Shown here: piece by piece, positions 6,570 to 29,372 of the stretch
How positions within the stretch are numbered: position 1 is the stretch's first letter
Layout of the letters: each line of letters opens with the position of its first letter
Assembly: GCA_937969495.1 (NCBI GenBank)
Contig: CALBVY010000023.1
Coordinates: 1 to 40,658 of the forward strand
Origin: an uncultured Verrucomicrobiales bacterium
GTDB lineage: Bacteria; Verrucomicrobiota; Verrucomicrobiia; Verrucomicrobiales; Akkermansiaceae
Direction: 5' to 3'
DNA length: 40,658 nt
The notes under the pieces: model-generated
Databases searched by the model: none
Told to the model about the DNA's origin: nothing
What the model saw: only the letters and a program-made list of their open reading frames with translations
Translations under genes and position numbers: made by a program

Positions 6570-6989
6570 CTACTCCCCCTGCACCACAAGGCTAATCTTA
6601 CGCGTATGTGGCGCGCGGCGATGCTCAAACAGAAAAATCCCCTGCCAAGTGCCCAGCGTCATCCCCCCACGGAGCACAGGAATCACCTCACTACTACGCG
6701 TGAGCGCCATCCGGATATGTGAGGGCATATCATCTGGCCCCTCGTAGGTGTGGATGAAGTAAGGCGTATCCTCTGGTACCAAATGGTCAAAAAAGGCCTC
6801 CAAATCCGTACGCGCGCTAGGATCTGCATTTTCCATAATCACCAGACTAGCAGAGGTATGCTGCACAAAAATAGTCACCGTCCCAGTAGCCACACCAGCA
6901 GAGGCCACCAGCCGCTTCACTTCATCGGTAATTTCGTAAGTCCCCTTACCGCTCGTGGACAGTGTAAACTCAGCGGAGTACACAGACAT
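6570..6989 (-). CDS. yjbQ: YjbQ/UPF0047 family protein
   Basis: A 139-residue cytoplasmic protein of the YjbQ (UPF0047) family. It has the conserved HTSASLVIMENADP, DDMPSHIRMAL and LGTWQGIFLFEHR segments, which form the metal/phosphate site of this small fold. Some members have been reported to have thiamine-phosphate synthase activity, but the physiological role is not settled. Its start at 6989 is 2 bases after the ppk2 stop, so the two minus-strand genes are almost certainly translated from one message. Confidence 0.92.
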   Translation of the reverse strand: MSVYSAEFTLSTSGKGTYEITDEVKRLVASAGVATGTVTIFVQHTSASLVIMENADPSARTDLEAFFDHLVPEDTPYFIHTYEGPDDMPSHIRMALTRSSEVIPVLRGGMTLGTWQGIFLFEHRRAPHTRKISLVVQGE

Positions 6990-6991
6990 GA

Positions 6992-7816
6992 TTAATCAAT
7001 GGTAATGTCCTCTGCTATCCAGTCTGATGTGGGAAACTTCATATCAAGCCCCTTGAGGGTATCAATCATGATCCGCGCAACCACCAGATTCCTATACCAT
7101 TTTCTATCCGAAGGGATGATATACCACGGTGAGTGCTCTGTACTAGTCCGCTCAATAAGATCTTCATACACCTCCATAAAGTCATCCCAGCGGGCACGAT
7201 CTTTAAGATCATCAGGATTAAATTTCCAATGCTTTGCTGGGTTATCGAGACGCGCCTGAAGCCGATCTTTTTGCTCATCTTTCGAGATGTTCAGGAAAAG
7301 CTTAACAATCGTAGTACCTTCCTCCGCCAGCATCCGCTCGAAATCAATAATATGCTGATAGCGAGGTTTCCACACCTCCTTAGGGTAGATATTCTTCACC
7401 CTCACCGCGATGATATCCTCATAGTGGCTACGGTTGAATACGACAATCTGCCCATTGCGCGGCACCTTATTATGAACGCGCCATAGGAAATCATGAGCCA
7501 GCTCGTCCTCGGATGGCTTTTTAAACGGCTCCACATGGATACCCTGAGGATCTACTTTGGAAAATACACTTTTCACAGTGCCATCTTTACCACCAGTATC
7601 CATGGCTTGAATCACCACTAGCACTCGGTGTTTACTCTCTGCATAGAGTTGATTCTGTAGTTGCTTCAGCTCATCACGGAGCTGATTAAGATATGGGACA
7701 TGATCCTCCTTCTCACCATGTTTAAAGAGGGATTTATCATTGGTATCATGATCAGAGAGCTTAAGTTTCTTCCCTGGAGTAATGTGGTATTTTTCTATCG
7801 ATCCTTGCACAGGCAT
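6992..7816 (-). CDS. ppk2: Polyphosphate:nucleotide phosphotransferase, PPK2 family
   Basis: A 274-residue P-loop kinase that uses polyphosphate to phosphorylate nucleotides. It has the PPK2 Walker A form AMDTGGKDGTVK at 71-82 and Walker B region IVVFNRSHYED at 124-134. The basic lid-like segment is QARLDNPAKHWKFNPDDLKDR. The C-terminal WYIIPSDRKWYRNLVVARI is the family end motif. Single-domain length and the ending resemble the class III/TIGR03709 group that acts on AMP and ADP; the class is my inference. It precedes yjbQ in a two-gene operon. The upstream gap (7817-8226) contains the DnaA boxes described separately. Confidence 0.93.
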   Translation of the reverse strand: MPVQGSIEKYHITPGKKLKLSDHDTNDKSLFKHGEKEDHVPYLNQLRDELKQLQNQLYAESKHRVLVVIQAMDTGGKDGTVKSVFSKVDPQGIHVEPFKKPSEDELAHDFLWRVHNKVPRNGQIVVFNRSHYEDIIAVRVKNIYPKEVWKPRYQHIIDFERMLAEEGTTIVKLFLNISKDEQKDRLQARLDNPAKHWKFNPDDLKDRARWDDFMEVYEDLIERTSTEHSPWYIIPSDRKWYRNLVVARIMIDTLKGLDMKFPTSDWIAEDITID

Positions 7817-7952
7817 AATCAGATTCTCTCAGAGCATCCGTTACCATGGCAAGGGAGAAAGCATATACTTTGAGTCATGCACCAAAAACCCCTTACTCCT
7901 GCGCTTCTGGCGCGCACTCATATCTGGGTGCACGCACTTGAAATACTCCAAG

Positions 7953-7961
7953 TTATTCACA
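7953..7961 (+). promoter_or_regulatory. DnaA box 1 (TTATTCACA)
   Basis: A perfect match to the DnaA-box consensus TTATNCACA, on the + strand, within GTTATTCACAAT. It is the first of three such boxes in 133 bases. Confidence 0.65.
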
Positions 7962-8020
7962 ATCATTATTGCCATTTAGCAAGAAATTCCTGCCTCCAAA
8001 CGGCGTATCAAAAACCCCAA

Positions 8021-8029
8021 TGTGAATAA
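8021..8029 (-). promoter_or_regulatory. DnaA box 2 (TTATTCACA on minus)
   Basis: TGTGAATAA on the + strand, a perfect reverse-orientation DnaA box. Read on the minus strand it shares GTTATTCACA with box 1 and lies 59 bases after it. Confidence 0.65.
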
Positions 8030-8076
8030 CTCAAATAGACCATGGAAGCACAACTTAAACAAAGCATTCGGGCAAT

Positions 8077-8085
8077 TGTGAATAA
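8077..8085 (-). promoter_or_regulatory. DnaA box 3 (TTATTCACA on minus)
   Basis: TGTGAATAA on the + strand, a third perfect box. On the minus strand it reads GTTATTCACAAT, a 12-base identity with box 1. The AT-rich tract begins some 50 bases to its right. Confidence 0.65.
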
Positions 8086-8226
8086 CGTAAAATAACTAAC
8101 TCTCAGTAAGCACTCCATAAATCTTACGTCCAAAGGAACCACAATTCATTCTATTAATGTAAAATAGTAAAAATTAACTCAAATTACTTACAATGAATAT
8201 AATATGATTATATTTACATTAAAAAA

Positions 8227-10227
8227 TTAATCAATAAAATCCCACACCGCTAGGAAGAATACAGCATGATCAGGATTGTTAATAACAATCGAACCATTGT
8301 GAATATCTCCCCTTTTCAGTGTTAATAACTCTTCATGGGTAAGCTTATTTTTACGCAAAATACGGAATCTACCCACCCTGCCAGAGACAGCTGGCGTAGG
8401 AAGTTTTCTATGCAACTCTAGAGCCACTCTCCCCATCGTCATCCGGACATTCAACTCCACGATGTGACGCAAGCCATAACCACCATCGGCAGTGCGAAAC
8501 ACCATGGCATCCACACCCACTGCCCCACGATACCCCGGCAGAATCTCCGGTAAGACCTCAGGGAGTCTTTGCCGATAAAATGACATCACTTCCTTCTCAC
8601 GGAATAGAAATTCGCGGAGATCCGCATCGAGATCACACCCCCACTTGGACTGTACAATAGTTCCAAGAAATCTCCCCGCAGCGTCATTTTCCATACGCGT
8701 CATACCCATCCACTTGGCAGTGGACTCACCAGTCTCCATATCTTCTCCTATTTCATAAAGTGAAGAGAAATCCACCACACGCTCCAGCCATGGCTCCACC
8801 ATCACGCCGCCGTGATTTTGAATCGTTTTCTCTAGCCACGGCATCACTTCATCCACGGACACCCCCCGCTTCACCTTCCGGTGCCCACGCCCCGCACAAG
8901 CAAACGCCGCCTTGAGCAAGACGTCACCTACTTTCAATCTCTCTATTAACTCCATCACCGCAACATCAAGATCCTTGCAAAACACCCCCACCCCCTCCGA
9001 GAGATCCAGCTGACTCTCTAGCCGGCTTCCTATTTCCTTACTGAAATATCCAGCCGGCACATTCCCACACCAGCTCCAGAGCGATGCACTCGAAACGTGT
9101 TGAGCAAATGGCTCCAGCTTTTTAGCAGCATCAGGTGACCACGCCCAAGGCCGTAGACCACCTAATTTCCTCCCTTCCAAAGCCGCCTCTGCCTCACCAC
9201 CCTCAGCGGAAAAAATCTCAGGCAGATCTAAGCCCGCATTTTTCAAATAAGCCAGATGCTCATTACCTGGCGGCTTACGCAGCAGCGCGATGTCTTCCTT
9301 TTTCGACCATGCTAAGATTAGCATTTCCAGATCCTCAGTCAGTGCCAGCTCAGATTTATTTGCCACGTGATGATGCCCTGAAGGCATCGCATGAGACTCA
9401 GCACTAGGGTTAAACCAATGCAACACTGGCGTCCTCCCTCGTGATTGCTCACAGACTTCTAAATGATTAATAAAATCCTCATCTAACCCAGCAAGCCGAC
9501 GCCCCTCAGCATTAAAAGGAGCAATCCCCTTCGCCTTCGCTGGAGCAAGCGGAAAACTCAGCGAACTCCTGTATGCTTGCCAATCAGTCTCCCCCTCGGC
9601 CTTCCATTTTCTAAACCACTTCACCCCATGACCAACATGACCAATCTCATCCTGATAGATTTTCTCCAACACCGCAGCCGTGGCGTTATCACCCACTTGA
9701 CGGAATAACACAGCGTAGTGTTTAGAAAAATCCAGATTCGCTTGCTCAAAGGTAAGATTAAGCCGCGTTACAAAGTCCATCGGCGTTTCCATAGGCGCGA
9801 TGAGTTTCCAAAAATAATCATTCACCGGAAGCTCGCCAAAGTGAATCCCGCAGTCACGCATCCGCCGCAGATACATCAGGGTATGCATCTGCTCCTCACG
9901 CATCGCTTCATAGACCCCCACCCGATACTCCCTAGGCGCATCTGGAAACTTCAGTAACACCAAAGCCATTAGCTCTGCCGCTAGAAGCTCGTGATTCGCA
10001 AGAAAATGAAGCATACGCCCCCGCTCCCCATCATCATCCAGTCGATTCACCCCTGGAAAATCAGCCTTAACTCCCTTAGCTACCATACGCAGTTCATCTG
10101 GCCTACTAGGTGCATCTGGCAGCCGAATACTTAACCTTGGCGCATCATCAGACACCACTTCAGGCGCAAGACTCAGCTTTTCTTCCAATGTAGAAGAAAA
10201 TAACAACCGCTCCGCCGCCTCACGCAT
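8227..10227 (-). CDS. DUF455 ferritin-like / ATP-grasp-like fusion protein
   Basis: A 666-residue two-part protein. Residues ~1-230 match DUF455, a ferritin-like four-helix family. The expected di-iron ligands are visible as ANHELLAAEL (E80/E85), REEQMH (E112, H115), TFEQAN (E161) and DEIGH (E194, H197). Residues ~290-666 look like an ATP-grasp fold: a pre-ATP-grasp-like start (LLRKPPGNEHLAYLKNAG), a Lys/Gly-rich nucleotide loop (LKAAFACAGRGHRKVKRG, K439), MVEPWLERVVDFS, and the metal-binding VELNVRMTMGR (E591, N593). No signal peptide; cytoplasmic. The ATG at 10227 is chosen because GGAG (minus strand, 10236-10239) sits 8 bases upstream; the ATG at 10233 would be only 2 bases from it. Domain fusion suggests oxidation and ATP-dependent ligation of one substrate. 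The function is unknown to me. Confidence 0.85.
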   Translation of the reverse strand: MREAAERLLFSSTLEEKLSLAPEVVSDDAPRLSIRLPDAPSRPDELRMVAKGVKADFPGVNRLDDDGERGRMLHFLANHELLAAELMALVLLKFPDAPREYRVGVYEAMREEQMHTLMYLRRMRDCGIHFGELPVNDYFWKLIAPMETPMDFVTRLNLTFEQANLDFSKHYAVLFRQVGDNATAAVLEKIYQDEIGHVGHGVKWFRKWKAEGETDWQAYRSSLSFPLAPAKAKGIAPFNAEGRRLAGLDEDFINHLEVCEQSRGRTPVLHWFNPSAESHAMPSGHHHVANKSELALTEDLEMLILAWSKKEDIALLRKPPGNEHLAYLKNAGLDLPEIFSAEGGEAEAALEGRKLGGLRPWAWSPDAAKKLEPFAQHVSSASLWSWCGNVPAGYFSKEIGSRLESQLDLSEGVGVFCKDLDVAVMELIERLKVGDVLLKAAFACAGRGHRKVKRGVSVDEVMPWLEKTIQNHGGVMVEPWLERVVDFSSLYEIGEDMETGESTAKWMGMTRMENDAAGRFLGTIVQSKWGCDLDADLREFLFREKEVMSFYRQRLPEVLPEILPGYRGAVGVDAMVFRTADGGYGLRHIVELNVRMTMGRVALELHRKLPTPAVSGRVGRFRILRKNKLTHEELLTLKRGDIHNGSIVINNPDHAVFFLAVWDFID

Positions 10228-10233
10228 CTGCAT

Positions 10234-10726
10234 AACTCCGAAATAAGATTCAAAACCAAAGAAGCAAGGGAAATACAGATGCTTTTACCACTTTAGCAAA
10301 GATGGCAACGATACAAAATACACCTCTACTCCCCGAGCATTTTATTTTTCCGGTCACCCACTAACTCATAACTACATGAAACAGAATGACTCAAATCACT
10401 CCCATCGATTTACCTTATTTTTTCATTGTTAGGATAGAATTTTTGTGTTTCATAGAGGCGATTATATATTTCCAATACCTAACACAATAAACCAAACAAA
10501 ATTTGAAAAATAATCACTTTTTAGAGTTCCCTATCATCTATTTTTAAATCTAAACTGTTATTTAACACATAAAAATTCTGTCCTGAAATTCGTATTACTC
10601 AGCAGCAGCATTTTTCAACTTATAGTTAGACTTTATATGCCACAGCGACAGCCAGAATCCATTGTATGACATTATTGTTTGATAAATTATTTCTCATAAA
10701 AAACAACGCCAACTTAGAATAACATA
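10234..10726. other. AT-rich divergent intergenic region
   Basis: 493 bases with no coding frame, between the divergent DUF455/ATP-grasp gene and the chemosensory kinase gene, so it must hold promoters for both. It is strongly AT-rich with many A- and T-tracts, especially 10430-10600. I see no convincing -35/-10 pair, sigma-54 site, riboswitch or DnaA box. Confidence 0.5.
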
Positions 10727-13159
10727 ATGAGCCAACCCAATACTTCAACGCCTCTCCCATCAAATAAAAAAACCTCAAAGACTATCAGTGAAAGTGACAC
10801 AGAAAAATCTCCTCCTTTGGTTCAGGACGAAGCACTTACTGCCTTACCTGGAACAGAAAAATACAGAACCCTCGTTTTATCCGGCTCTCTCTTCATTATC
10901 TTCCAGCTCATTGCGCTACTGATCATTTTCTTCGCAGCCCAATCATACGATCAGGATGCGAGGGAAGTGAATGCCGCTGGACGTCAGCGAATGCTTAGTC
11001 AGCGCCTCGCCAAATCACTCTATCAACTCCAATCACCCAACTTAACCGCTGAACAAAAAGTAACCACTATCCAAGAAGCCAAGCTATCACACCAGGTGTT
11101 TGACGAAACCCTCAGAGCATTCATAAACGGAGGAACGACCACGGGCTTTGACTGGAAATCTCAAATTGAATTACGGAAATTCAATATGAAGGGCAAACAA
11201 TCTATTCTCAATGATGCCTCAAATCTTTGGAAAGATTACAGTGATATGGTCCTAGCTGTCCTCAATGACCCAAACATTGAAACTAATAACCCTGAACTTT
11301 TTGATCAAACCATCGCATTAGCCCAGGAACGCAACCTCAAGCTTCTTGGACTTATGAACACCCTTACCGTATCACTTCAGGAGCAGGCAGAATCACGTGG
11401 TAAAACCCTTCAAATCAGCCAAACCATCCTCCTCCTTGCAGTCATTGCCAACTTTCTTTTCCTCGCTCTATTTGTGGTTAAAAAACTTAAAATGGGTGAT
11501 GCTCGAACTAGACAGTTCGCCCTGTCACTCGGTTCCAAAAACTCCGAACTTGCGTCAACCAACAAAGAATTGGGAACCATGCAAACAACACTAAGTGACT
11601 CACACAAAGAACTTCAAGGCACTTACAAAGAACTTAAAGAAGCAAGCGCGAAATCAGAGCAACGCGCTCAAGAACTTGCCATACTATCTGAGGATCTCTC
11701 GCGAGTACAGCAGGAATCAACCACCATTTTTGACTCCGTTAGCCACGGCCTCTGCCTAATCGGTAGTGATTGGAAAATAGGAAATCAGGTGAGCTCCGCG
11801 ATGTATTCCATTTTTGAAACAGACACACTTACCGGGCGTTCATTTCTTGAGCTCATGCGCCCCCACATCACAGAGAAAGACGTCACCACGCTCAAAAGCT
11901 TCTTAGACCTCCTCTTCCAGCCTAAAACAAGTAGTAAACAACTCGATAAATTTAACCCTCTCAAGAGTATCGAAGTCACACTAAATTGGGACGGGCAGTC
12001 TTTTGTTAGTAAGCATCTCGGCTTTGACTTCAAACGCATTAAAAGCGGAGATAAAATTGTTTCCGTGCTCGTCACCGTAATGGACGTAACCGAAAAGGTC
12101 GCTCTGGAAAACGAACTCAAACGCTCAGCAGAAGGCAAAGAGAGACAAGCTGAACTCGTTCTTGAAATCACTCAATCAGACCGTAAAGAACTGGATCTCT
12201 TTCTTGCTAAAACAGAAAAAGAACTTGATCAAATTAATGAAATTCTGCGCAACGCAGGAATTAGCTCAGATGGCAAAAATTACTTGGAGAACCCTCAAGA
12301 AATCCTCGAACAAGTTTTCCGGAAAATACATAACATCAAAGGCAATAGCTCTCTGCTCAACCTCACATCCATGGTAGAAAGTTGCACCAAGGTGGAAACA
12401 GAGCTCACACAGCTCCGCTCGAATAAGAAAATAACAGGTGACCGCTTCCTGTCTTCTTTAGTAGAGCTCGCCTACATGAGAGAGCTTCTCTGTGAGTATG
12501 AAGACCTCATTCACTCTCTCCTCAAAAACTTTGAAGGAGGAAAAGCTGCTACACGTAATCAAGCAGCCGCTGCTCAATCACCATGGGGTGATCTCCAGAC
12601 CCTCGTAACTAAGGTCGCTGAAACTGAAAAGAAAAAGGTTAATCTTAACCTCCTCACACTGAATACCAGCTTACTCAACACTGAACAACATGACGCCATC
12701 AAAGATGTTCTCATTCAGCTTACACGTAACTCCGTAGTCCACGGCATCGAAACCCCAGACACAAGAAAGCGTAATGGCAAATGGGAAGAAGGTAATATCC
12801 AGATCGACTCCAGCTTACTCAGCGCACAAGAAAGCCCACTACAGACATCTACCTTACAAATCAATTTCCGCGATGATGGCCAAGGCCTTGATCCAGATAC
12901 CATTGCCCAACGTGCCATTGAGATGGGGCTTATTTCACCTCAGGAAATCATGAGCTTCAATGACTCACAAAAGGTATCCCTCATTTTCAAACCTGGCTAC
13001 TCCTCCACAGACATCGCCACCGAACACTCAGGAAGAGGTTCCGGTATGGATATCGTTCGCGATAAAATCGTCAAATCCCTAGGAGGGAAAATAAGGCTAC
13101 GCTATGAAACAGGTAAACTCTTTGAACTCAAAATCATGGTCCCAGTTTCCCCTGTATAA
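10727..13159 (+). CDS. Membrane sensor kinase, PilJ-PAS-HPt-CheA-type HATPase
   Basis: An 810-residue inner-membrane signalling kinase. Order: Ser/Thr/Lys-rich cytoplasmic N-terminus; TM helix ~52-72; a periplasmic type-IV-pili-MCP/PilJ N-domain beginning NAAGRQRMLSQRLAKS (83-98); a second TM helix ~229-251; a coiled coil (~270-330); a PAS-like region (~331-456); an HPt domain with the phospho-accepting histidine in FRKIHNIKGNSSLL (H535); and a HATPase domain with CheA-like boxes LTRNSVVHGIE (N668), DDGQGLD (716-722) and GRGSGMDIVRD (769-779). It ends right after the HATPase, so it lacks the CheW-like P5 regulatory domain of true CheA, and the dimerisation segment is short. It probably phosphorylates the regulator encoded 55 bases downstream. 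First gene of a four-gene cassette. Confidence 0.9.
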   Translation: MSQPNTSTPLPSNKKTSKTISESDTEKSPPLVQDEALTALPGTEKYRTLVLSGSLFIIFQLIALLIIFFAAQSYDQDAREVNAAGRQRMLSQRLAKSLYQLQSPNLTAEQKVTTIQEAKLSHQVFDETLRAFINGGTTTGFDWKSQIELRKFNMKGKQSILNDASNLWKDYSDMVLAVLNDPNIETNNPELFDQTIALAQERNLKLLGLMNTLTVSLQEQAESRGKTLQISQTILLLAVIANFLFLALFVVKKLKMGDARTRQFALSLGSKNSELASTNKELGTMQTTLSDSHKELQGTYKELKEASAKSEQRAQELAILSEDLSRVQQESTTIFDSVSHGLCLIGSDWKIGNQVSSAMYSIFETDTLTGRSFLELMRPHITEKDVTTLKSFLDLLFQPKTSSKQLDKFNPLKSIEVTLNWDGQSFVSKHLGFDFKRIKSGDKIVSVLVTVMDVTEKVALENELKRSAEGKERQAELVLEITQSDRKELDLFLAKTEKELDQINEILRNAGISSDGKNYLENPQEILEQVFRKIHNIKGNSSLLNLTSMVESCTKVETELTQLRSNKKITGDRFLSSLVELAYMRELLCEYEDLIHSLLKNFEGGKAATRNQAAAAQSPWGDLQTLVTKVAETEKKKVNLNLLTLNTSLLNTEQHDAIKDVLIQLTRNSVVHGIETPDTRKRNGKWEEGNIQIDSSLLSAQESPLQTSTLQINFRDDGQGLDPDTIAQRAIEMGLISPQEIMSFNDSQKVSLIFKPGYSSTDIATEHSGRGSGMDIVRDKIVKSLGGKIRLRYETGKLFELKIMVPVSPV

Positions 13160-28211: not shown

Positions 28212-29372
28212 ATGAAAACCATCAGCATCGCTCTCGTATCCAGCCTCATCAGCAACCTCTCTTTATCGGCTCAAGATCAACCCAAGCCTCATCTATCCAT
28301 CAAGCTGGAGATGAAACGCGCCATCGAACGAGGGAATTCTTATCTCAAAAGCCAACAACATACAGATGGCTACTGGGGGAAAGAAAAATACCCTGCCCTA
28401 AGCGCCCTCGCCCTCACCGCCGCAGTCCGCTCACCTTCTTTTAAAAAATCCGAATACATCACTAAAGGCTACAACTGGATTCTTAAACAACAGAAACCTG
28501 ACGGCGGAATCTACGTAGAGGGACTCGGAACCTATAACACAGCCACCTCTCTCACTGCACTCGTAGCTGCCAATGAGGCATCCTACAAACCTAACATACT
28601 CAAAGCAAGGAAGTATCTAATCGAGCTCCAAACTACAGAAGAAAACCGTGGTGAAATCGAAAAAAAACACATCGGTGGCATTGGCTACGGCGGTACCTAC
28701 AAACACTCCGACCTATCTAACACCCACCTCGCCATGGAGGCTCTTAGACTTTCTCGCCACATCGCCCAAGATGATGCTGAGGAACAACAACCAGAACTGA
28801 ACTGGGATGCAGCTATCGAGTTTGTCTCCCGCACACAGAATCTTAAGGCCACCAATCAAGAAGCGGAGATTTCCGACGATGGGTCTTTTGTTTACTACCC
28901 TGGTGCCTCCAAAGCGATGGAGAAAAATGTCAACTCTGACGGCACAGAGACACTACGCGGCTACGGCTCCATGTCCTACGCCGGCCTACTCTCTCTAATC
29001 TATGCAGACCTCGACGCTACCGATCCCCGTGTAAAAGCCGTAAAAGACTGGCTTTCTAAACACTACACCGTCAAAGAAAATCCTGGTCTTGGCACCAAGG
29101 AAGATCCAGCCCTAGGACAACAAGGTCTCTACTACTACTACCAAGCCATGGCAAAAGGTCTAGCCGCAGCGAACATTGATAAGCTAACACTCGCAAATGG
29201 TAGCCAGGTAGACTGGCGCAAAGACCTAGGCAACGCTCTACTCTCCAAGCAACGCGAAGATGGCTCATGGATTAATACTGAAAACTCACGCTGGTGGGAA
29301 AGTGACCCCATCCTCGTCACCGCGTATTCAGTATTGGCTCTCGTGCAGCTCTACGATTCTATTCCAGAGTAA
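28212..29372 (+). CDS. Exported prenyltransferase/squalene-cyclase-type repeat protein
   Basis: A 386-residue exported protein with a signal peptide cleaved near LSLSAQ. The mature part has QW-like repeats of an alpha/alpha6 barrel: SYLKSQQHTDGYWG, WILKQQKPDGGIYV, LSKQREDGSWIN, each followed by LALTA-type helices. The catalytic DxDD of squalene-hopene cyclases and the zinc site of prenyltransferases are not visible, so it is probably a binding or scaffold protein of that fold, not a cyclase. It is coupled to the YdjY gene. Many automatic annotations would call it a terpene cyclase/mutase family protein. Confidence 0.82.
   Translation: MKTISIALVSSLISNLSLSAQDQPKPHLSIKLEMKRAIERGNSYLKSQQHTDGYWGKEKYPALSALALTAAVRSPSFKKSEYITKGYNWILKQQKPDGGIYVEGLGTYNTATSLTALVAANEASYKPNILKARKYLIELQTTEENRGEIEKKHIGGIGYGGTYKHSDLSNTHLAMEALRLSRHIAQDDAEEQQPELNWDAAIEFVSRTQNLKATNQEAEISDDGSFVYYPGASKAMEKNVNSDGTETLRGYGSMSYAGLLSLIYADLDATDPRVKAVKDWLSKHYTVKENPGLGTKEDPALGQQGLYYYYQAMAKGLAAANIDKLTLANGSQVDWRKDLGNALLSKQREDGSWINTENSRWWESDPILVTAYSVLALVQLYDSIPE

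Follow-up and report, generated by a model that had tools for sequence, protein, structure and literature searches.

A predicted fusion of a DUF455 ferritin-like domain and an ATP-grasp domain in Verrucomicrobiota

The gene and its two predicted domains

The stretch of DNA analysed here (the window) comprises positions 1 to 40,658 of contig CALBVY010000023.1, from an uncultured Verrucomicrobiales bacterium of the Akkermansiaceae lineage (assembly GCA_937969495.1). Its minus strand carries, at 8227..10233, an open reading frame (ORF; 668 amino acids plus stop) whose product is predicted to join an N-terminal DUF455 domain to a C-terminal ATP-grasp domain. Either M1 (at 10233) or M3 (at 10227) could be the start codon; a first-pass annotation, made from the letters of the window, began the gene at M3 (8227-10227), and its residue numbers are therefore 2 below the M1 numbering used here. 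The same annotation described the gene as standing alone, in agreement with flanking gaps of 410 bp (7817-8226) and 493 bp (10234-10726). Relatives share 30-77% identity with the window protein, the lowest value in our alignment being that of locus L050 (30%) and the closest named relative coming from an Akkermansiaceae (Verrucomicrobiota) metagenome assembly (77%). With both folds assigned by structural modelling and the catalytic residues invariant among relatives, we regard the ORF as confirmed to be a real DUF455–ATP-grasp fusion.

The DUF455 (PF04305) ferritin-like di-iron domain occupies residues 16-255 (9469..10188, minus strand), which match the Pfam profile at 162.3 bits (cut-off 34.3, E=2e-47); the match recurs in all 21 rows of fusion alignment A1, window protein included. 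When residues 1-262 were modelled alone with 22 aligned sequences, the predicted local distance difference test score (pLDDT) was 85.6 and the predicted template modelling score (pTM) 0.87, and the model contains four long helices (68-95, 101-127, 151-179 and 183-210). Ferritin-like di-iron proteins carry the signature E / ExxH / E / ExxH on successive helices of a four-helix bundle. Here we found one invariant candidate iron ligand or ligand pair on each of the four helices. Across an alignment of 57 fusion sequences, the window's included (gapped rows are left out of each denominator), these are E82 on helix A (9988..9990; 56/56), E114-Q-M-H117 on helix B (9883..9894; 57/57 each), E163 on helix C (9745..9747; 57/57) and E196-I-G-H199 on helix D (9637..9648; 57/57 each), all encoded on the minus strand. 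All six ligand residues are also common to the five stand-alone DUF455 proteins that we aligned. The four di-iron motifs that the first-pass annotation had placed in the first ~230 residues (E82/E87, E114xxH117, E163 and E196xxH199 in our numbering) thus hold up. E87, five residues past E82, is kept in 56/56 fusions but is replaced by D in 4/5 stand-alone DUF455 proteins, and E82 is therefore the likelier ligand.

In the model, E82 and E114 are both 16 residues away from the A-B turn (~residue 98), E163 and H199 both 18 residues away from the C-D turn (~181), and E196 15 residues away from the latter. By this arithmetic, the candidate ligands of each helix pair would sit at corresponding depths. 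The predicted four-helix bundle, with one set of ligands per helix and ferritin-like structural matches, is consistent with the clustering of ligands that the earlier proposal implied. The best structural match of the N-domain model is a cyanobacterial aldehyde-deformylating oxygenase (4tw3, Z 15.4 over 188 residues, root-mean-square deviation (rmsd) 3.3), and further matches include toluene/o-xylene monooxygenase (1t0q, Z 14.1), the azoxy synthase VlmB (8wvr, Z 14.0), and Dps-like and bacterioferritin-like proteins (Z 13-15). The 50 N-domain fold matches listed do not name any haem-oxygenase-like protein. Profile A1 also matched an aldehyde-deformylating oxygenase (E=0.2), but through the ligase half, and we discounted this as a chance hit.

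For the C-terminal half (residues 264-668; 8230..9444, minus strand), the structural model, the fold matches and a 17-row profile of C-terminal halves that includes stand-alone members (A3) point to a pre-ATP-grasp domain followed by an ATP-grasp domain. The only Pfam match of this half is a sub-threshold one to DUF3182 (PF11379; 22.2 bits, cut-off 26), which is found at E ≤ 0.1 in 15/21 rows of alignment A1; in the part of their study available, Burroughs and others name DUF3182 as an unrecognised ATP-grasp family (PMC4431377). Searching structures by Foldseek with the full-length model (pLDDT 85.9, pTM 0.67) retrieved 3wvr at E=5e-14; superposing residues 269-668 on this entry aligned 356 residues at Z 27.8 (rmsd 3.1, 15% identity). 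The next match is 3wvq (Z 27.3), titled 'ATP grasp protein' like 3wvr; we take both entries to be PGM1, the pheganomycin peptide ligase. Also close are a Streptomyces ATP-grasp peptide ligase (8ynd, Z 25.2, 337 residues aligned, rmsd 3.7; 8ynq, Z 23.8), BesA (8yi6, Z 24.2, 357 residues aligned, rmsd 3.5) and Staphylococcus aureus SAOUHSC_02373 (7r8q, Z 23.6; 7r8p, Z 21.7), presumably the L-aspartate--L-methionine ligase LdmS. After these first seven entries (Z 27.8 to 21.7), purine-pathway ATP-grasp enzymes begin at Z 19.0.

The hallmarks of the ATP-grasp superfamily are found in this half: the fold itself, the catalytic lysine K441, the aspartate D575 and the ExN residues E593 and N595. K441, a candidate ATP-phosphate lysine in the motif KAxxxxGRG (8911..8913), and E480, a candidate nucleotide-binding hinge residue in VEPW (8794..8796), are each present in 56/56 fusions and invariant in A3 (17 rows for K441). 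D575 in GVDAM (8509..8511), a candidate Mg ligand, is kept in 55/55 fusions and is invariant in A3. The same holds for the ExN metal motif E593-L-N595 (8449..8457; 55/55, with E593 and N595 invariant in the 17 A3 rows), which is the E591-L-N593 site of the first-pass annotation. A further lysine, K399 (9037..9039), is kept in 56/56 fusions and is not invariant in A3; all five features lie on the minus strand. R597 and M600-G601-R602, which follow the ExN motif, are each found in 55/55 fusions. The structural prediction is ATP-grasp-like over the whole length of the half, and the earlier assignment of an ATP-grasp fold to it therefore stands.

LdmS (NF047900) is the sole NCBIfam family listed for the C-half members (5/17 at E ≤ 0.1; best match E=8e-8 with 31 bits, where the cut-off is 475), and the PreAtp-grasp profile PF18604 matches 2/17 of them at E ≤ 0.1 (best E=6e-5), the window member not being included. 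Searched against the sequences of the Protein Data Bank (PDB), the C-half profile recovered 7r8p (E=0.0058 over ~105 positions). The same database queried with the window protein gave one match, at E=0.95, which we judged to be chance.

Conservation and distribution of the fusion and its halves

The 57-sequence alignment was reduced from 83 loci by dropping those with identical last 250 residues; proteins shorter than 200 amino acids (hence L041), other DUF455-like proteins (L052-L056, L059) and loci L060-L098 were also dropped. Four of its sequences are incomplete (L017, L037, L038 and L039). Comparing the 53 complete members pair by pair gives a mean identity of 58% in the N-terminal half and 37% in the C-terminal half, and these pairwise identities correlate closely between the two halves (r=0.90). 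Full invariance is seen in 54 columns, among them many polar residues of the N-terminal half besides the ligands. Between the domains lies the hinge S264-x-G266-R267-x-P269 (9427..9444, minus strand), whose four named residues are each present in 57/57 fusions; model confidence is lowest here, with pLDDT <50 at residues 263-266. The SxGRxP hinge is absent from four aligned stand-alone Bacteroidales ligase-half proteins and so belongs to the fusion. A 1127-residue version of the protein at locus L106 was considered as a triple fusion, but its first ~425 residues look like a wrong-strand translation; it was trimmed and no extra domain was counted.

Among 58 related genomes, the window's own included, 45 contain a match to the fusion protein, 44 a match to the ligase-half profile and 43 a DUF455 match above cut-off. 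Both halves were found in 42 of the 58, in every case on the same contig and strand and in an open frame of equal length. Three genomes have a single half only (G004, G039 and G051), each at a contig end. Across the phylum, the full protein was matched in 19 of 288 genomes; 14 of these matches are strong, and the other five are to different proteins, within their DUF455 part alone. The ligase-half profile found matches in 11 of 240 genomes; their open frames span 648-724 codons, and the ligase half is never alone in them. The listed matches to the fusion family contain no internal stops. Family f4 lacks the gene in all of its six genomes, as do the 20/20 genomes listed for one genus of the window's own family (g3, which may be gut Akkermansia), and the many absences indicate a gene that is widespread but dispensable. 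A link with an aerobic lifestyle was considered and judged too weak: both genomes lacking COX1 (G014 and G015) are without the gene, but so are 11 COX1-positive ones.

DUF455-like sequences also occur apart from the fusion. In addition to its fusion, genome G045 encodes a separate protein above the DUF455 cut-off (42 bits), and weak DUF455-like matches occur in other proteins of G037, G039, G046 and G049; DUF455-like proteins with frames of 404-552 codons were not counted as members of the fusion family. Other Verrucomicrobiota proteins with a DUF455-like part have frames of 445-552 codons (L052-L056, L059, L067-L082), and in L052, L053 and L055 this part sits towards the C-terminus.

Outside Verrucomicrobiota, the records searched were plasmid, phage and viral ones; a scan of genome contigs by exact peptide patterns returned 21 loci, all from Verrucomicrobiota according to their titles and including loci of the culturable Haloferula and Persicirhabdus. 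The five stand-alone DUF455 proteins that we aligned (four from Alphaproteobacteria and one from Geobacillus; 267-377 amino acids) share the ligand set described above with the fusion and differ from it in lacking the ligase half and, in four of the five, in carrying D at the position of E87. A peroxiredoxin gene precedes the DUF455 gene in three of the five loci (Sphingomonas, Sinorhizobium and Qipengyuania) but not in Geobacillus and Thioclava. In the Alphaproteobacteria, DUF455 genes lie directly after the peroxiredoxin gene at L083:4884-5708, L084:4668-5495 and L086:4866-5666, and an M23 peptidase gene comes next in two of these loci.

The ligase half, in turn, stands alone in five plasmid-collection records, from Parabacteroides, Bacteroides, Phocaeicola and Prevotella. 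The four such Bacteroidales proteins compared (L060:5980-7185, L061:5485-6591, L062:5509-6708 and L063:5512-6624) are 369-402 amino acids long, 19-21% identical to the window's C-terminal half, begin with FNPxxE/D and carry the ATP-grasp motifs. They share K441, E480, D488, D575, E593, N595, R597, W363 and the FNP start with the fusion, and differ from it in having neither the DUF455 half nor the SxGRxP hinge. Where annotated, they are called hypothetical proteins; a Pfam scan gave no match for them at E ≤ 0.01, and a search of PDB sequences with the Parabacteroides protein returned nothing. At L062 and L063 the ligase-half gene adjoins a gene for an AAA-family ATPase, followed by nifJ. The occurrence of each half as a separate protein speaks for two modules, each with its own chemistry.

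Genomic setting

The downstream neighbour of the fusion gene, 410 bases away on the same strand, encodes a PPK2 polyphosphate kinase (6992-7816), an arrangement that, among 20 loci compared, is common only to the nearest relative (L021). Upstream, 493 bases away and divergent, lies a gene for an 810-residue protein with PilJ sensor, Hpt and histidine-kinase ATPase domains (10727-13159). Ten other window genes scanned for domains encode common ones. The protein encoded at 28212-29372 has a partial match to the C-terminal part of squalene-hopene cyclase (whole-protein E=2e-9; best stretch 34-99), in which no single stretch is significant alone. No Rfam family reached gathering score in 6900-11500.

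A phage or defence link was considered and dropped: phage records gave no match to the fusion protein, 41 pattern matches in viral contigs included no relative of it, PADLOC defence families gave no match, and the best PHROGs hit had E=0.16. Gene neighbourhoods were compared over 43 loci, with the target gene found in 40; in the other three (L026, L120 and L121) it was lost to a longer overlapping ORF. In the smaller comparison of 20 loci, up to six share neighbours, all of them near relatives. Among small ORFs in flanks of up to 700 bases at 57 loci, no family occurs in more than seven. The three commonest, each found in 5 to 7 loci, are upstream of the fusion gene in those near relatives that have an aminotransferase gene in common there, and seem to run antisense to that gene. 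We therefore recognised no convincing precursor of a ribosomally synthesised and post-translationally modified peptide beside the gene.

Possible activities and comparison with known systems

ATP-grasp enzymes form an acyl phosphate and then join it to an amine. We give about an even chance to the reading that the fusion is a bifunctional enzyme, combining di-iron oxidation with ATP-grasp ligation of one amino-acid-like small molecule. The DUF455 domain would bind two irons in its ferritin-like four-helix bundle and activate O2, and the di-iron site would oxidise or oxygenate a small amino-acid-like substrate. The ATP-grasp domain would use ATP to activate a carboxylate as an acyl phosphate, and joining this to an amine (or similar group) of the same molecule would yield an oxidised amide or a small peptide. 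In this scheme we infer that the metal is iron, that both sites are active, that the substrate resembles an amino acid and is shared between the sites, and in which order the steps follow. The first-pass annotation had already suggested that one substrate, such as a peptide or an amine, is modified in two steps; such a scheme may apply here. It fits the ATP-grasp structures closest in fold as well as the reported coupling of diiron oxidases to ATP-grasp ligases. Since both active sites are kept across relatives, the protein probably makes an oxidised small molecule. Contig-end cuts aside, the ligase half was never found unfused in the genomes searched within the phylum. Through the fusion, DUF455 is connected with a ligase whose closest structural matches form amino-acid or peptide bonds.

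A more specific version, which we put forward only tentatively, is that the single chain oxidises and ATP-ligates the same amino-acid-derived molecule, with the intermediate passing across the SxGRxP hinge, so that one gene would constitute a pathway to a new peptide or amide metabolite or cofactor. If so, its product would be one kept by many Verrucomicrobiota, and, to our knowledge, no DUF455 protein would have been given a function before. An enzyme that combines two activities but has no gene cluster around it would escape cluster-based genome mining, and its product could be a missed metabolite. For the DUF455 family, and likewise for the uncharacterised Bacteroidales ligase-half proteins, the fusion also makes a concrete test possible.

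Several observations weigh against the bifunctional reading. The relative orientation of the two domains is uncertain in the full-length model (pTM 0.67). The N-domain model gave a best Foldseek E-value of 0.045 and none at or below 0.001; its matches at Z 13-15 are at about the level of common helical bundles and cannot single out one family, and the nearest folds include iron-storage proteins. The window's C-terminal half has no match to the LdmS family NF047900 at E ≤ 0.1. The gene is not matched in 13 of the 58 related genomes and 269 of the 288 phylum genomes. Finally, the neighbourhood survey that the first-pass annotation proposed brought no recurring partner: no neighbour family occurs in more than 4 of the 40 loci, and thus no pathway supports a substrate.

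This absence of conserved context would equally fit a self-contained modification, and we consider it possible but unlikely that both sites act on a macromolecule, with DUF455 acting like MiaE to hydroxylate a residue of a tRNA or protein and the ATP-grasp domain, like RimK, adding an amino acid to it. The SxGRxP hinge is basic as well as invariant, and the stand-alone DUF455 protein of Sinorhizobium matches MiaE weakly (E=0.0036); the window protein, however, has no MiaE (PF06175) listing at E ≤ 1, a search in which HMMER filters drop most weak matches. Moreover, the ATP-grasp structures closest to it belong to ligases of amino acids or peptides that have a pre-ATP-grasp domain, and a Pfam scan of the window protein shows no added RNA- or protein-binding domain.

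Next in plausibility, and improbable in our view, is that only the ATP-grasp half is enzymatic and that DUF455 serves as an iron or oxygen sensor, or as a ferroxidase, gating the ligase. Such a role would suit the bacterioferritin and Dps-like proteins among the structural matches (Z 13-15) and the peroxiredoxin gene before stand-alone DUF455 in three of five loci. Against it, the N-terminal half is the better conserved of the two (58% versus 37%) and rich in invariant polar residues, which would be unusual for a mere regulator; furthermore, aldehyde-deformylating oxygenases align with the model as far as residue 262, whereas most ferritin, bacterioferritin and Dps rows reach only residues 209-220.

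We hold it very improbable that the protein performs a PGM1-like step in a ribosomal-peptide pathway with the precursor encoded nearby: the best structural match, 3wvr, taken to be PGM1, speaks for such a step, but no small-ORF family occurs in more than 7 of the 57 loci, the commonest look antisense, and the neighbours are not conserved. A chance fusion, an assembly artefact or one dead half is refuted by fusions in many independent assemblies, without internal stops and with both active sites invariant.

How, then, does the fusion, read as a bifunctional enzyme, compare with known systems? Its whole C-terminal half superposes on 3wvr/3wvq, taken to be PGM1, and on the Streptomyces ligase 8ynd, which, unlike the fusion, are not known to have an iron domain. 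LdmS likewise is not known to have one; the fold of SAOUHSC_02373 is similar to that of the fusion's C-terminal half (7r8q, Z 23.6), while the profile matches are weak and the window protein is unmatched. BesA belongs to an amino-acid pathway in which a diiron oxidase, BesC, takes part as well; the two are separate proteins of one cluster, and the fold of BesC is haem-oxygenase-like, not ferritin-like as in the fusion. According to the portion of PMC8939145 available, PGM1 joins a small core peptide with an amino acid. The fusion resembles a PGM1-type ligase in fold (Z 27.8) and has no precursor peptide recognised nearby.

We found no paper treating DUF455 together with ATP-grasp in the open-licence literature, nor, in the parts of it available, a function for DUF455, the mentions being a domain table and a fold-assignment study. 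The statement in the first-pass annotation that no characterised enzyme has this architecture agrees with the open-licence literature on ATP-grasp combined with DUF455, ferritin-like or diiron proteins. In the portions available, that literature describes the modules and the logic of their pairing, and we did not find the single-chain form with a ferritin-like oxidase described there. Predicted operons pair diiron oxygenases with ATP-grasp ligases (PMC2922099, as far as the available text goes); in these, the oxidase has its own gene and a fold other than that in the fusion. The accessible part of PMC13185094 describes the mangotoxin proteins MboA and MboC/MboD, together with at least 25 clusters that combine a haem-oxygenase-like diiron oxidase with an ATP-grasp ligase. 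As described there, mangotoxin-type clusters are like the fusion in combining diiron oxidation with ATP-grasp amino-acid ligation, and differ from it in that they use separate genes and a haem-oxygenase-like oxidase, whereas the fusion would unite the two activities in one chain with a ferritin-like oxidase.

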